A DNA stretch of 64,000 nt from Lachnospiraceae bacterium. Lineage in GTDB: Bacteria; Bacillota; Clostridia; Lachnospirales; Lachnospiraceae. Shown here one piece after another: positions 10,482 to 49,502 of the stretch. The stretch lies in assembly GCA_017542245.1 (NCBI GenBank), contig JAFXXN010000078.1, forward strand, positions 248,001 to 312,000. The letters are read 5' to 3'. Under the pieces are notes generated by a model, which saw only the letters and a program-made list of their open reading frames with translations, made no database searches and was not told the origin of the DNA. The position numbers were made by a program, and so were the translations under genes. Position 1 is the first letter of the stretch. Every line of letters starts with the position of its first letter.

Positions 10482-11345
10482 ATGGGAAATGAGAACGTAT
10501 TAACAAACAGTCAAAGAGCTGAAGTGCTGGTACATGCACTTCCTTATATCCAGAAGTACAACGACAAAATAGTAGTTGTAAAGTATGGCGGAAATGCTAT
10601 GATAAATGAGGATCTGAAGAATGCGGTTATGGGAGATATCGTGCTTCTTAACCTCATTGGTATGAAAGTTGTACTTGTACATGGCGGCGGTCCTGAGATT
10701 ACCGAGACCCTTAATGCTGTAGGTAAAAAGACAGAGTTTGTTAACGGGCTCAGAGTTACAGATGCCGAGACTGCCGAAATCGCAATGATGGTTCTTGCAG
10801 GAAAGATTAACAAAAGTCTTGTTAACCGTATTAACAAATTCGGTGCAAAGGCATTAGGTCTCTGCGGACTTGATTCTCAGATGATAAGAGCGGAAAAGCT
10901 TGATGAAAAGCTTGGCTTTGTCGGAAAGATAACACATATCAACGAGGATCCTATTCTTGATGTACTGAATATGGGATATATACCTGTTATTGCAACAGTA
11001 GGTTATGACGATGACGGAAATGTTTACAATATAAATGCAGATACAGCAGCTGCAAGAATTGCCGGAAAACTGAGAGCGGAAGCACTTATCTCTATGACCG
11101 ATATAGACGGTATATTAAGAGATAAAGATGATCCTTCTTCACTCATTCATGAGATTAATGCCAGCGAAGCTCCGCAACTTATGAGAGAAGGTATAGTATC
11201 CGGTGGTATGATACCCAAGGTTGAGTGCTGTATCGAAGCTATCAGACGTGGAGTAAAGAAAGTATTTATCATAAATGGTAAGATACCTCATTCAATACTT
11301 ATTGAAACAATGACTGATGAAGGTATCGGAACTATGTTTGTATGA
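10482..11345 (+). CDS. argB: Acetylglutamate kinase
   Basis: Phosphorylates N-acetylglutamate, the second arginine step and the usual site of arginine feedback. The 287 residues have the amino-acid kinase fold. The N-terminal KYGGNAM segment binds phosphate, HGGGPEI forms the glycine loop, and the C-terminal nucleotide-binding region includes TDIDGIL and SGGMIPKVE. The N-terminal helix before the fold (TNSQRAEVLVHALPYIQKY) is typical of hexameric, arginine-inhibited enzymes (family knowledge). Ribosome site GCGAGGAA precedes the ATG. Repeat copy A lies just upstream. Confidence 0.95.
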   Translation: MGNENVLTNSQRAEVLVHALPYIQKYNDKIVVVKYGGNAMINEDLKNAVMGDIVLLNLIGMKVVLVHGGGPEITETLNAVGKKTEFVNGLRVTDAETAEIAMMVLAGKINKSLVNRINKFGAKALGLCGLDSQMIRAEKLDEKLGFVGKITHINEDPILDVLNMGYIPVIATVGYDDDGNVYNINADTAAARIAGKLRAEALISMTDIDGILRDKDDPSSLIHEINASEAPQLMREGIVSGGMIPKVECCIEAIRRGVKKVFIINGKIPHSILIETMTDEGIGTMFV

Positions 11346-11381
11346 TTAAGTCACTGATGAAAGTATTTAATTTATATGATT

Positions 11382-11815
11382 AAGCCTTCCCCTTGAGGGG
11401 AAGGTGCCCCGAAGGGGCGGATGAGGTGTCAATGATAAAGAATCATAATCCTATGTTAACGTCATATTCTCAGAAACTAAGACGAGATATGACAAAAGAA
11501 GAAAGACATTTATGGTTTGACTATCTTAAATCCTTACCTATTACCATTAATCGTCAAAAAATTATTGGAAAATATATTGTAGATTTTTACTGTGCAAAAG
11601 CAAAAACAGTTATAGAATTAGATGGATCTCAACATTTTGAAAAAGATGGTAAAGAAAAAGATATTGAGAGAGATGGTTTTTTAAAATCTCAAGGTATAAA
11701 CGTATTAAGATATTCAAATTATGATGTGAATTATAATTTTGAAACAGTATGTCAAGATATATACAATCACCTCATCAGTCAGCTTCGCTGACAGCTTCCC
11801 CTCAAGGGGAAGCCT
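11382..11815 (+). mobile_element. DUF559 nuclease element with structured inverted ends
   Basis: A ~434-bp unit between argB and argD. The left end (11382-11428) holds hairpin CCTTCCCC-TTGA-GGGGAAGG, hairpin GCCCC-GAA-GGGGC (11406-11418), then GATGAGGTG (11420-11428). The right end is its inverted counterpart: CACCTCATC (11768-11776), hairpin GTCAGC-TTC-GCTGAC (11778-11792) and hairpin CTTCCCCT-CA-AGGGGAAG (11795-11812). The outer hairpin and the GATGAGGTG box are conserved in sequence. The inner hairpin is conserved only in shape. Between them lies one DUF559 nuclease gene, whose ribosome site is the GAGGTG of the left end and whose stop codon lies in the right inner hairpin. No clear target duplication was seen, so the mobile nature is inferred. 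Confidence 0.65.
11432..11791 (+). CDS. DUF559 (Vsr-like PD-(D/E)XK) endonuclease-domain protein
   Basis: Small nuclease-fold protein of about 119 residues. The conserved motifs are LRRDMTKEERHLWF near the N-terminus, the QKIIGKYIVDFYC strand, VIELDGSQHF (the acidic/QH active-site strand) and the arginine-rich GINVLRYSNYDV. These place it in DUF559, related to the very-short-patch repair endonuclease fold. ATG 11432 is preferred over 11393 because the earlier start would translate the left-end hairpins; GAGGTG (11423-11428) gives a close ribosome site. It is inserted in the arg operon with inverted structured ends, so it more likely belongs to a mobile unit than to arginine metabolism. Confidence 0.85.
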   Translation: MIKNHNPMLTSYSQKLRRDMTKEERHLWFDYLKSLPITINRQKIIGKYIVDFYCAKAKTVIELDGSQHFEKDGKEKDIERDGFLKSQGINVLRYSNYDVNYNFETVCQDIYNHLISQLR

Positions 11816-11847
11816 ATAGATTACACAATGAAAAGAAAGGTTTATAT

Positions 11848-13149
11848 ATGAATATAAAAAATAATGACAAAGAATACATAGCCAACACCTACGGGCGTTT
11901 TGACTTAGAGCTCGTTAAAGGCAAGGGTTCTCTTTTATATGATGAAAATGATAAAGAATATATAGATTTAGGTACAGGTATCGCAGTAAATATATTTGGT
12001 GCCGGAGATGAAGAGTGGAAGCAGGCTGTTATTGATCAGCTTAATCTTATCCCTCATACATCAAATCTTTACTACAGTGTACCTCAGGTAAAGTTAGCAA
12101 AACTCCTTTGTGAGAAAACCGGTATGAAGAAAGTCTTCTTCGGTAACTCCGGTGCAGAAGCTAACGAGTGTATGATAAAGGTTATCAGGAAATATGCATC
12201 TGACAAGTATGGTGATGAAAGAAATATCATCATTACACTGATTAACAGTTTCCATGGCAGGACAGTTACAACATTGTCAGCTACGGGTCAGGATGTATTC
12301 CACAAGAGTTTCGGACCTTTTACAGGTGGTTTTCTTTATACACCGGCAAATGATTTTGCAGCATTAAAGGCTCTTTGTGAGGAAAATAAAGGCAAAGTAG
12401 CCGGTATCATGTTGGAGCTTGTACAGGGTGAAGGTGGTGTTATCGCACTTACTCCTGACTTTGTAAGAAAAGTTGAAGCATATTGCAAGGAAAATGATAT
12501 ACTTCTCGGTATTGACGAAGTACAGACAGGTAACGGACGTACCGGTAAGCTTTACGCATTCATGAATTACGGTATAACTCCTGATGTAGTTTCTACTGCA
12601 AAGGGTGTAGCCGGCGGACTTCCTTTAGGTGCTTGTCTCATAGGTGAAAAGTGTAAGGACACAATGGGTGCCGGTTCACATGGCTCAACATTTGGTGGAA
12701 ACCCTGTGGTGACAGCCGGTGCATATAACATTCTTTCGAGAGTAGATGATAATTTACTAAACGGTGTTAAGGAGAAGTCAAAGCTTATCATAGAAAAACT
12801 TACATTCCTTAAGCTGGATGATGATATGAATCCTGTCGGACTTTTTAATGAATGTGATGCAGATTCAAAGACCGCTGATGGCAAAACTATTGAAGATGTT
12901 ATAAAGAATTATCAGTTTGGTATTTGGCCTTCATTCCGTAAAGGTATCGTATCAGTTTCAGGTATGGGATTAATGCTTGGTATTCAGACTGAGAAGGAAG
13001 CTAAGACTATCGTTAATAAGGCTATTGAAAAAGGTACGATTGCTCTTACTACAAAAACTAAAGTAAGACTTCTTCCGGCTTTGAACATTCCTAACGACTT
13101 ACTTGAAAAAGGACTTGAAACTATTCTTTCTTCTATCGAGGAAGTTTGA
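11848..13149 (+). CDS. argD: Acetylornithine aminotransferase
   Basis: PLP enzyme converting N-acetylglutamate semialdehyde to N-acetylornithine. The class-III aminotransferase features are FGNSGAEANECMIK, INSFHGRTV, IDEVQTGNGRTG and the PLP lysine K252 in VVSTAKGVAGGLPLG. It has 433 residues, slightly long for ArgD because of an extra segment near 320-370. The start at 11848 follows AGAAAGG. The longer open frame to 11749 runs through the right end of the DUF559 element and is rejected. The element separates it from argB, so expression depends on read-through or a promoter within the insert. Confidence 0.93.
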   Translation: MNIKNNDKEYIANTYGRFDLELVKGKGSLLYDENDKEYIDLGTGIAVNIFGAGDEEWKQAVIDQLNLIPHTSNLYYSVPQVKLAKLLCEKTGMKKVFFGNSGAEANECMIKVIRKYASDKYGDERNIIITLINSFHGRTVTTLSATGQDVFHKSFGPFTGGFLYTPANDFAALKALCEENKGKVAGIMLELVQGEGGVIALTPDFVRKVEAYCKENDILLGIDEVQTGNGRTGKLYAFMNYGITPDVVSTAKGVAGGLPLGACLIGEKCKDTMGAGSHGSTFGGNPVVTAGAYNILSRVDDNLLNGVKEKSKLIIEKLTFLKLDDDMNPVGLFNECDADSKTADGKTIEDVIKNYQFGIWPSFRKGIVSVSGMGLMLGIQTEKEAKTIVNKAIEKGTIALTTKTKVRLLPALNIPNDLLEKGLETILSSIEEV

Positions 13150-48401: not shown

Positions 48402-49502
48402 ATGAATATAGTGAAAAACAGATCAATCATAGATAAGATAATGCACTTCCTTGTGCACAACAGTTTATTGTTTACTGTTGTAATAATGGGCCTGGTACAC
48501 GCTACATTGCTTTTGATCACATTGATCGCAGGTGCAACTACATTATGGTATTTTAACATATTAAGTGTTGTGGTATATGCATTTTGTACGGTACTGGGTA
48601 AAACCGGACATATTCTGCCGGTTTATATCAGTATATTTGTTGAAGTTTCGATATATGCTGTCATATCAGTGCTTAATATAGGGTGGGATTGTGGTTCTTA
48701 TTATTTTTTATTTTCCATAGTTCCTATAGTTATATTTTTTGGCTGTTATATATTCAAAGGGTCGAAAAGATGGATTATTGTTCTGATGCTGACAATGTTA
48801 TTCGCAACTTATATGGTTCTTTATATCGGATTCTGGGATACGAAACCGGTATACGAGGTATCTGAAACGATCAGGATGATACTTACTGTTTTTTCAGCGT
48901 TTGCAATGTACTTTTCTGTTGTGTTTTATATGGTAATGTATATTTATTCCAGTGAATCCGAGATGAACAATCTGGAAGAAAAAAACGTTAAGTTATCGGT
49001 TGATGCTCAGGCAGATGCTTTGACGGGCTTGCTTAACAGACGAGGTTTTCTGCCGATAGTTGACTCTCTTATGGAAAAAGGTAAAAAAAATCATTTCTGC
49101 TTAGCTTTTACAGATATTGATAATTTTAAAAGAATTAATGATTCTTTCGGACATGATTGCGGAGATGAGGTGTTAAGACATATTTCCGAGTTGATACAAA
49201 AGGAAATGATCGGATGTGATATATGCAGATGGGGCGGTGAGGAATTTATCATTCTGATGAAGAACTTTGATTTTAATACAGCAATTCAGAAAATGGAAAA
49301 TATTAGGCAAATGGTAGAGTCCACACCGACGACTTTCTACAATAAACGTGTTGCAACAACTATAACTATTGGTGTAGAGGAGTTCAGCGATATTTATAAT
49401 GAGCCGGAAGACATCATAAGGATTGCCGATGAGAGAATGTATTATGGTAAACAGCACGGAAAAAATATCGTAATCTTTGAGAGTGTTTCTAATGCAAATT
49501 AA
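48402..49502 (+). CDS. Membrane-bound diguanylate cyclase
   Basis: A 366-residue protein with about six transmembrane helices (about 20-185) of no named sensor family, and a C-terminal GGDEF domain with active-site motif GGEEF (278-282) and DALTGLLNRRGF. The inhibitory I-site RXXD upstream of the motif is replaced by IGCD, so product inhibition is probably absent. It should make c-di-GMP from GTP in response to a membrane signal. It ends at the terminator at 49564-49619. Confidence 0.92.
   Translation: MNIVKNRSIIDKIMHFLVHNSLLFTVVIMGLVHATLLLITLIAGATTLWYFNILSVVVYAFCTVLGKTGHILPVYISIFVEVSIYAVISVLNIGWDCGSYYFLFSIVPIVIFFGCYIFKGSKRWIIVLMLTMLFATYMVLYIGFWDTKPVYEVSETIRMILTVFSAFAMYFSVVFYMVMYIYSSESEMNNLEEKNVKLSVDAQADALTGLLNRRGFLPIVDSLMEKGKKNHFCLAFTDIDNFKRINDSFGHDCGDEVLRHISELIQKEMIGCDICRWGGEEFIILMKNFDFNTAIQKMENIRQMVESTPTTFYNKRVATTITIGVEEFSDIYNEPEDIIRIADERMYYGKQHGKNIVIFESVSNAN

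Follow-up and report, generated by a model that had tools for sequence, protein, structure and literature searches.

Short palindromic repeats are abundant in bacterial chromosomes, and a partner enzyme, RAYT, is known for the repetitive extragenic palindromes (REPs) that carry a GTAG tag. In REP/REPIN systems with RAYT (TnpA-REP), also called REPtrons, the gene lies near or between inverted tagged palindromes and gene-less copies are dispersed between genes, according to the portions available of two papers (PMC3116915, PMC3733652). Intrastrand triplex motifs (TM or TMECO, formerly PIT) are a further described group, found in E. coli and >260 bacteria. Here, we analyzed an element in a 64,000-nucleotide stretch of DNA from a Lachnospiraceae bacterium (contig JAFXXN010000078.1, positions 248,001 to 312,000; the whole stretch is referred to as the window), in which a DUF559 gene is flanked by two inverted ends (11384-11813). 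We consider it about 65% probable that this element represents, at full length, a widespread system of repeats operating in the manner of REP/RAYT, with a Vsr-like nuclease as the partner enzyme.

The DUF559 system shares with REP/RAYT a gene accompanied by inverted palindromes ending in a short unpaired tag, gene-less copies dispersed singly and as inverted pairs, and few enzyme genes against many repeats per genome. Nonetheless, it falls outside REP/RAYT because both enzyme and tag differ: the enzyme is a Vsr-fold PD-(D/E)XK nuclease rather than an HUH/Y1 transposase, and the tag is GATGAGG, GGTGAGGG or GGATGGGG (GATGAGGTG in the window) rather than GTAG or CGTC. DUF559 ends, moreover, often have two hairpins. 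Common to the triplex motifs and the DUF559 system are A and B types and inverted A+B pairs, both present in the window's genome as well, and inward ends that fit the published triplex pattern exactly at 18 of the 75 DUF559 loci surveyed below (on at least one side; on both sides at 4). However, triplex motifs are described as a source of instability without a mobility gene, and many DUF559 relatives, including that of the window, carry an additional hairpin that separates stem from box and depart from the triplex pattern. Miniature inverted-repeat transposable elements and insertion sequences likewise have inverted ends that may or may not enclose an enzyme gene, but here there is no DDE transposase, target duplication was not found at the junctions and sites compared below, and the ends are hairpins instead of linear inverted repeats. 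To our knowledge, no Vsr endonuclease or Vsr-like homing endonuclease (I-Bth0305I) is packaged between hairpin ends with dispersed copies. In the open PMC literature (subscription papers and most preprints lie outside it), we found neither DUF559 nor ycjD joined to hairpin-plus-box or triplex repeats, nor did we find a partner enzyme named there for hairpin-plus-box repeats, those of E. coli included; a box-like sequence in one further bacterial paper lies within a primer. A repeat-plus-partner-enzyme system with a Vsr-fold nuclease in place of RAYT would thus appear to be new.

Structure of the window element

In each end, the order towards the gene is outer hairpin, inner hairpin, unpaired GATGAGGTG box (Table 1), and the arms at 11383-11406 and 11792-11815 are 92% complementary. 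The left end, or A type, has C-G as the outermost pair of its outer stem and continues TG-CCCC, and the right end, or B type, has G-C and continues TG-TCAGC. When folded as single-stranded DNA, both ends formed two hairpins and left the box unpaired (z -4.5 and -5.0), and only 1 of 200 and 0 of 200 shuffles folded as well. At up to two mismatches, the outer motif occurs in just these two places in the window (0.11 expected; 1 of 100 shuffles reached two). The box occurs three times (0.47 expected), twice in the ends of the element; the third copy, at 49164-49172, lacks the outer hairpin motif and is probably due to chance.

The ends are interlocked with the gene. The ATG at 11432 stands three bases after GAGGTG, and the left box thus doubles as ribosome site, while the TGA stop (11789-11791) lies within the right inner hairpin. 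The earlier note on this DNA, made from the letters alone, had read the ends as inverted two-hairpin copies serving these two purposes, and both points hold. It had also described the inner hairpins as alike in shape but not in sequence, a pattern that recurs across the genus: 38 distinct genus ends contain 25 distinct inner stems, and the two halves of an end's own inner stem pair over at least five bases in 87%, compared with 25% for halves taken from different ends. At the foot of the outer stem, 45 distinct genus contexts have C-G in 24, G-C in 20 and G-T in 1, and the base outside this outermost pair is always G. Because the changes in the inner stem and at the outer-stem foot are paired, the structure appears to be maintained, and selection on the structure of the ends is well supported by these comparisons.

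The window protein belongs to the DUF559 family, with a match to PF04480 of 106.5 bits (E 8.6e-31; cut-off, 20.6 bits). Its fold and its conserved acidic and histidine positions place it among the Vsr-fold PD-(D/E)XK nucleases, and the invariant residues include D51, E62, D64 and H68. Functional Vsr mismatch endonucleases nick at T:G mismatches; the NCBIfam vsr model was matched by one of three proteins tested, which was not that of the window (18.1 bits; cut-off, 97.85). A profile search revealed no Y1_Tnp match in the window protein, and the enzyme encoded with the ends is DUF559 rather than the HUH enzyme of REP/RAYT. DUF559 is rare on phages and plasmids: the window protein was found in 2 of 50,697 phage records and, with a different query, YcjD was found in 43 of 72,556 plasmid records. 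In addition, the window's family repeatedly contains open reading frames (ORFs) of ~140-170 aa with a weak match to the final third of PF04480 (L031-L034 and similar); these ORFs perhaps represent another nuclease family.

Table 1. Features of the element and its surroundings, in window positions
Feature	Position	Strand	Remarks
Left end (A type)	11384..11428	+	G plus outer hairpin 11385-11404, inner hairpin 11406-11418, unpaired box GATGAGGTG 11420-11428
Left outer stem, CCTTCCCC/GGGGAAGG	11385-11392/11397-11404	+	
Left inner stem, GCCCC/GGGGC	11406-11410/11414-11418	+	
DUF559 gene	11432..11791	+	119 aa, Vsr-fold PD-(D/E)XK nuclease
Right end (B type), inverted	11768..11813	-	Box 11776-11768, inner hairpin 11792-11778, outer hairpin 11813-11794
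Right outer stem, GCTTCCCC/GGGGAAGC	11813-11806/11801-11794	-	
Right inner stem, GTCAGC/GCTGAC	11792-11787/11783-11778	-	
Imperfect duplication of argB 3' end	11337..11384	+	Adjoins left end; direct repeats D8, D9; absent in G010
argB (presumed)	10482..11345	+	Upstream neighbour; anchor in junction comparison
argD-like gene (presumed argD)	11848..13149	+	Downstream neighbour; ATG at 11848 within ORF listed 11749-13149

DUF559 genes between ends across bacteria and in E. coli

To survey the packaging of DUF559 genes, genome contigs were searched with an alignment of five DUF559 proteins. The search gave 571 relatives, of which the best 80, skewed to the query's kin, were kept; five lay too close to a contig end, leaving 75 testable loci in ten named phylum-level groups. 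Other ORFs on the same contigs served as controls (316 for the strict motif; 295 kept farther from DUF559), since cross-paired loci (77 loci) share the motif, which inflates the result of an inverted-repeat test. At most of the best 80 loci, a C-rich palindrome followed by a G-rich box points at the gene, in the form CCCTCTCCC-loop-GGGAGAGGG-TTGGGGTGAGGG, in the form CCTTCCCCC-loop-GGGGGAAGG-TTGGGATGGGG, or as two hairpins before GGATGAGG, as in the window. By one fixed definition, inward ends were present on both sides of 52 of the 75 DUF559 loci, compared with 2 of the 295 control ORFs (Fisher p 1.4e-42), and on at least one side of 68. A stricter motif gave 35 of 75 loci versus 1 of 316 controls, with 184 strict motifs versus 0 in base-shuffled sequence. 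When the fixed definition was afterwards applied to a second sample of 30 new loci, 25 had both ends. Thus, gene and ends form one unit, as the window alone had suggested, and this packaging recurs across phyla.

Both ends were found at 41 of 57 loci in Pseudomonadota, 5 of 5 in Thermodesulfobacteriota, 1 of 4 in Chloroflexota, 1 of 2 in Melainabacteria and at single loci in Nitrospirota, Omnitrophota, FCPU426 and Rokuibacteriota; single loci in Spirochaetota and Bipolaricaulota had one end, and one locus had no assigned group. Outward-facing ends on both sides occurred at 14 of the 75 loci and perhaps arise from the clustering of extra ends. The stop codon lay strictly inside the right end at 12 of 58 loci and past its inner edge at 46, far beyond it in four of the latter. 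On a poorly resolved tree of 114 DUF559 proteins, 107 of them with an end class, the end class followed the enzymes, requiring 36 changes versus 53.6 after shuffling (0 of 200 shuffles as low).

In E. coli, the DUF559 gene is ycjD (b1289). An AATGAGGTG box ends in its GTG start codon, and its stop lies in an imperfect hairpin, CCCTCTCCC-TGAAA-GAGCGAGGG. The ycjD relatives L088 and L089 each have, on the downstream side, an end that fits exactly the published triplex pattern, CCCTCNCCC-loop-GGGNGAGGG-N3-GGGNGAGGG. The window ends do not follow this pattern; they read CCTTCCCC-TTGA-GGGGAAGG (or GC at the foot), then a second hairpin and then GATGAGGTG. As far as the available portion of Holder et al. 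2015 goes, MG1655 holds 23 TMECO copies of A and B types, among them five inverted pairs that always join A with B; the repeats vary markedly among 56 strains; and transposase or integrase remnants were never found beside them, nor is a mobility gene described. ycjD occurs in 3365 of 5426 E. coli genomes, and a match to a repeat pair occurs in 4763 of the 5426. Among the 60 matches listed, Nissle has 2 repeat-pair places and two K-12 derivatives have 7 each, counts that are suggestive only. By sequence, DUF559 is thus a candidate partner enzyme for the E. coli triplex repeats. As a separate observation, the ycjD element and an efflux cluster replace each other between sapF and fabI (L084, L085 and L086 versus L015); the cluster is eef in PMC12817139, in the available part of which ycjD is placed at the position of the eef operon of other lineages.

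Gene-less ends and the distribution of DUF559

The genome of the window (4.72 Mb in 203 contigs; listed as 97% complete and 8.6% contaminated) contains one full DUF559 gene and one weak partial match, together with 13 end motifs, 2 of them those of the window and 11 elsewhere. One gene-less pair faces inward with 16 nt between its boxes (L005/L006), and its fold is a closed multi-hairpin structure (z -9.5). Two others, at L004 and L007, face inward with one altered partner each, and L008 and L013/L014 are outward pairs. Read by eye, each gene-less pair of this genome joins one A-like with one B-like end. The earlier note had suggested a test for non-autonomous copies of the ends, and gene-less ends indeed exist both singly and as inverted pairs.

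To relate end number to the enzyme, three end patterns were counted and DUF559 was sought in 119 genomes from the family to which Xanthomonas sp. Leaf131 (G495) belongs. Any end pattern was present in 61 of 64 genomes with DUF559 and in 10 of 55 without it (p 3e-19, in a sample of related genomes and with statistics that ignore kinship), and end copies numbered 3125 and 66, respectively. DUF559 is present in 56 of the 60 genomes that contain over four copies and in all 41 genomes with more than three copies of the first pattern; the two-hairpin type of the window, which is one of the three patterns, occurs in 53 of 64 genomes with the gene versus 7 of 55 without. Copy numbers range from 0 to >100 between species of the family, compared with at most five DUF559 matches per genome. 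As a control, Y1_Tnp, which has the RAYT fold, was sought and found in 75 of the 119 genomes. For the first pattern, the DUF559 effect holds in both Y1_Tnp-positive (p 1.6e-8) and Y1_Tnp-negative (p 2.6e-4) genomes, and no Y1_Tnp effect was seen within the DUF559 strata (p 0.53 and 1.0).

By end type, W-type copies were enriched where the fetched DUF559 gene has W ends (p 0.0005), and no such enrichment was found for D and T copies (p 0.77 and 0.14). The short inward pairs among the matches listed for G590, G524, G536, G519 and one G551 place were all D+T (12 of 12); as a general rule, D+T pairing was rejected, the other listed D matches of G551 including, by eye, at least 7 D+D inward pairs. 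At G605:C1:1482731-1483005 and G501:C28:10565-11212, ends recur in tandem every ~60 and ~203 bases, respectively, an arrangement similar to REP clusters.

In the genus of the window, full-length DUF559 was found in 4 of 24 genomes: G000, G007 (with an internal TGA), G010 and G018. The element lies between two genes that we take to be argB and argD in G000, G010 and G007, and G018 carries DUF559 with ends at another site. Junctions without the element, which the earlier note had suggested looking for, do exist: the element is missing from 13 further argB-argD junctions that were followed as far as the next gene, and in G003 argB runs almost straight into argD. With these junctions, the G018 site and the dispersed ends, the element is not fixed at argB-argD throughout, nor confined to it. 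Other repeats occupy the same junction, namely, a CGGCTCCGTTCCGCG-type hairpin family in G001 (L036, after argB from 2362) and a GTCATCCTGAG...CAGAATGAC family in G006 (L038, reverse strand), so argB-argD may be a preferred site for repeats of several families. An imperfect duplication of the argB end just 5' of the left end (11313-11384) is present in G000 but not in G010.

Proposed movement of the ends and alternative explanations

How such a system could spread can be proposed as follows. The hairpin-plus-box geometry together with an encoded Vsr-fold nuclease suggests, by analogy, recognition, nicking alongside and then host repair. The DUF559 protein would recognize the hairpin-plus-box, probably in single-stranded DNA during replication or repair, and would nick or cut it, either beside the box or at the hairpin's outer foot; the freed pair of ends, with or without the gene, would then be copied to a new place with the help of host repair. 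Host repair is invoked because a PD-(D/E)XK enzyme hydrolyzes DNA and, unlike HUH transposases, keeps no covalent link to it. In favour of such a system, the Caulobacter DUF559 protein VsrA is required for the SOS response of cells without scmA (PMC12907096). Two-ended copies without the gene would be non-autonomous, single ends would be remnants, and genomes rich in ends but without the gene would have lost it. The broadest form of the proposal is that DUF559 elements make up a pan-bacterial class of mobile repeats with no relationship to HUH, DDE, serine or tyrosine systems. In this class, a stand-alone Vsr-fold nuclease would recognize hairpin-plus-box single-stranded DNA and spread itself and gene-less derivatives by cut-and-repair, and the E. 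coli triplex repeats and ycjD would be the best-placed model. We hold this form to fall a little short of an even chance.

Evidence of movement was sought at the argB-argD junctions of the genus and at five E. coli intergenic repeat sites. Neither a target duplication nor a clean empty site was found among them. At hrpB-mrcB, the repeat pair is absent in Nissle, MLI114 and O169, in which 12 nt occupy the place of the 114 nt of MG1655, ruling out a simple insertion. The difference at alx-sstT is an internal deletion, 186 nt including the flanks are missing at fepB-entC, and the differences at tauD-hemB and lldD-trmL are replacements or internal deletions. No common insertion rule emerged from these five sites; gcvP-ygfF was left out, as the listed strains without a full match also lack the ygfF side, and a seventh site, L225, did not enter the comparison. 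In one strain, PF9285 (L230, lldD-trmL), a palindrome inside the repeat pair is a possible insertion. We take this palindrome to resemble two facing inside ends of IS50.

Several observations weigh against the proposal that DUF559 moves the element and its ends. The E. coli sites that differ in presence or absence are replaced or internally deleted stretches and not clean insertions, no target duplication accompanies any of the sites compared, and movement was not observed. Since the identity of the element tracks that of argB (92% and 88% between G000 and G010; 85% and 83% in the G007 comparison), the window copy was probably inherited. In the genus, where the end motif occurs in 12 of 24 genomes, ends are not tied to the DUF559 gene: they occur in 4 of 4 genomes with it and 8 of 20 without it (p 0.09), and 49 of 217 copies are in the former and 168 in the latter. 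G006, listed as 100% complete, has 24 ends and no DUF559, and G019 (66% complete) and G003 (71% complete) have 55 and 42 ends without the gene. Loss of the enzyme after expansion could perhaps account for such genomes. In the Leaf131 family, whose members are kin, G549 and G581 have 21 and 17 ends but no DUF559 match, and G550, G579 and G622 have DUF559 but none of the three patterns; in G549, G581 and G006, the enzyme may have been lost or have diverged. Furthermore, enzyme identity and end sequence were not significantly correlated in a Mantel test (r 0.10, p 0.084), and the borders of ycjD are only imperfectly end-like, the clear repeat (TMECO 9 in Holder et al. 2015) standing 167 nt past its stop. 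Thus, of the mobile REP/RAYT-like system with a Vsr-like nuclease that the earlier note had seen here, the closely similar organization, the Vsr fold and the gene-less ends are supported, and movement by the nuclease is a proposal.

Other explanations account for parts of these data. Hairpins rich in C and G occur commonly between bacterial genes, and terminator-like hairpins might cluster by chance beside short genes; this possibility is negligible, being refuted by the control ORFs (2 of 295 versus 52 of 75 loci) and by the shuffled sequences (0 strict motifs versus 184). The main alternative, although unlikely, is a homing-like selfish nuclease with the cut in the target: DUF559 would break both strands at targets resembling empty sites, repair would copy the gene with its ends, and short copies would stem from incomplete or aberrant repair. 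Such a nuclease does not predict that most copies are gene-less ends at unrelated sites, and selection on hairpin structure also speaks against it.

It is improbable as well that a different enzyme, for example a Y1/RAYT transposase, mobilizes the ends and that DUF559 is a passenger lying between two of them by chance. The frequency of Y1_Tnp in the Leaf131 family and the high end counts without DUF559, chiefly in the window genus, fit this explanation, as does a repeated Legionella segment with both a transposase and DUF559 (PMC12308824, in the part available), in which the transposase makes a helper enzyme possible, a further point against DUF559 acting on its own. However, Y1_Tnp is no predictor of the first end pattern once DUF559 is known, chance does not explain DUF559 between such ends in many phyla, and the lack of transposase or integrase remnants near E. 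coli repeats in the available text of Holder et al. 2015 argues against it. Still less probable is a repair, restriction or defence nuclease of the cell, with the ends controlling its expression and the scattered copies being binding or regulatory sites rather than mobile DNA. Caulobacter VsrA has been proposed to be a Vsr-like repair enzyme tied to a methyltransferase (PMC12907096), and the ribosome site and stop codon within the window ends would suit a role in expression. Against this stand the range of end copies between species of the Leaf131 family, compared with the few DUF559 matches per genome, and earlier work, cited in Holder et al. 2015, in which the E. coli repeats showed neither promoter nor terminator activity.

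If the element is indeed a member of a REP/RAYT-like system with a Vsr-like nuclease as the partner, a nuclease family labelled only as a domain of unknown function would be the missing partner of these repeats, and DUF559/YcjD would gain a function. It would help to explain the gain and loss of such repeats between strains and would represent a mobile system whose enzyme is a hydrolytic Vsr-like nuclease. The question can be addressed in E. coli K-12, with its one gene and 23 listed repeats.
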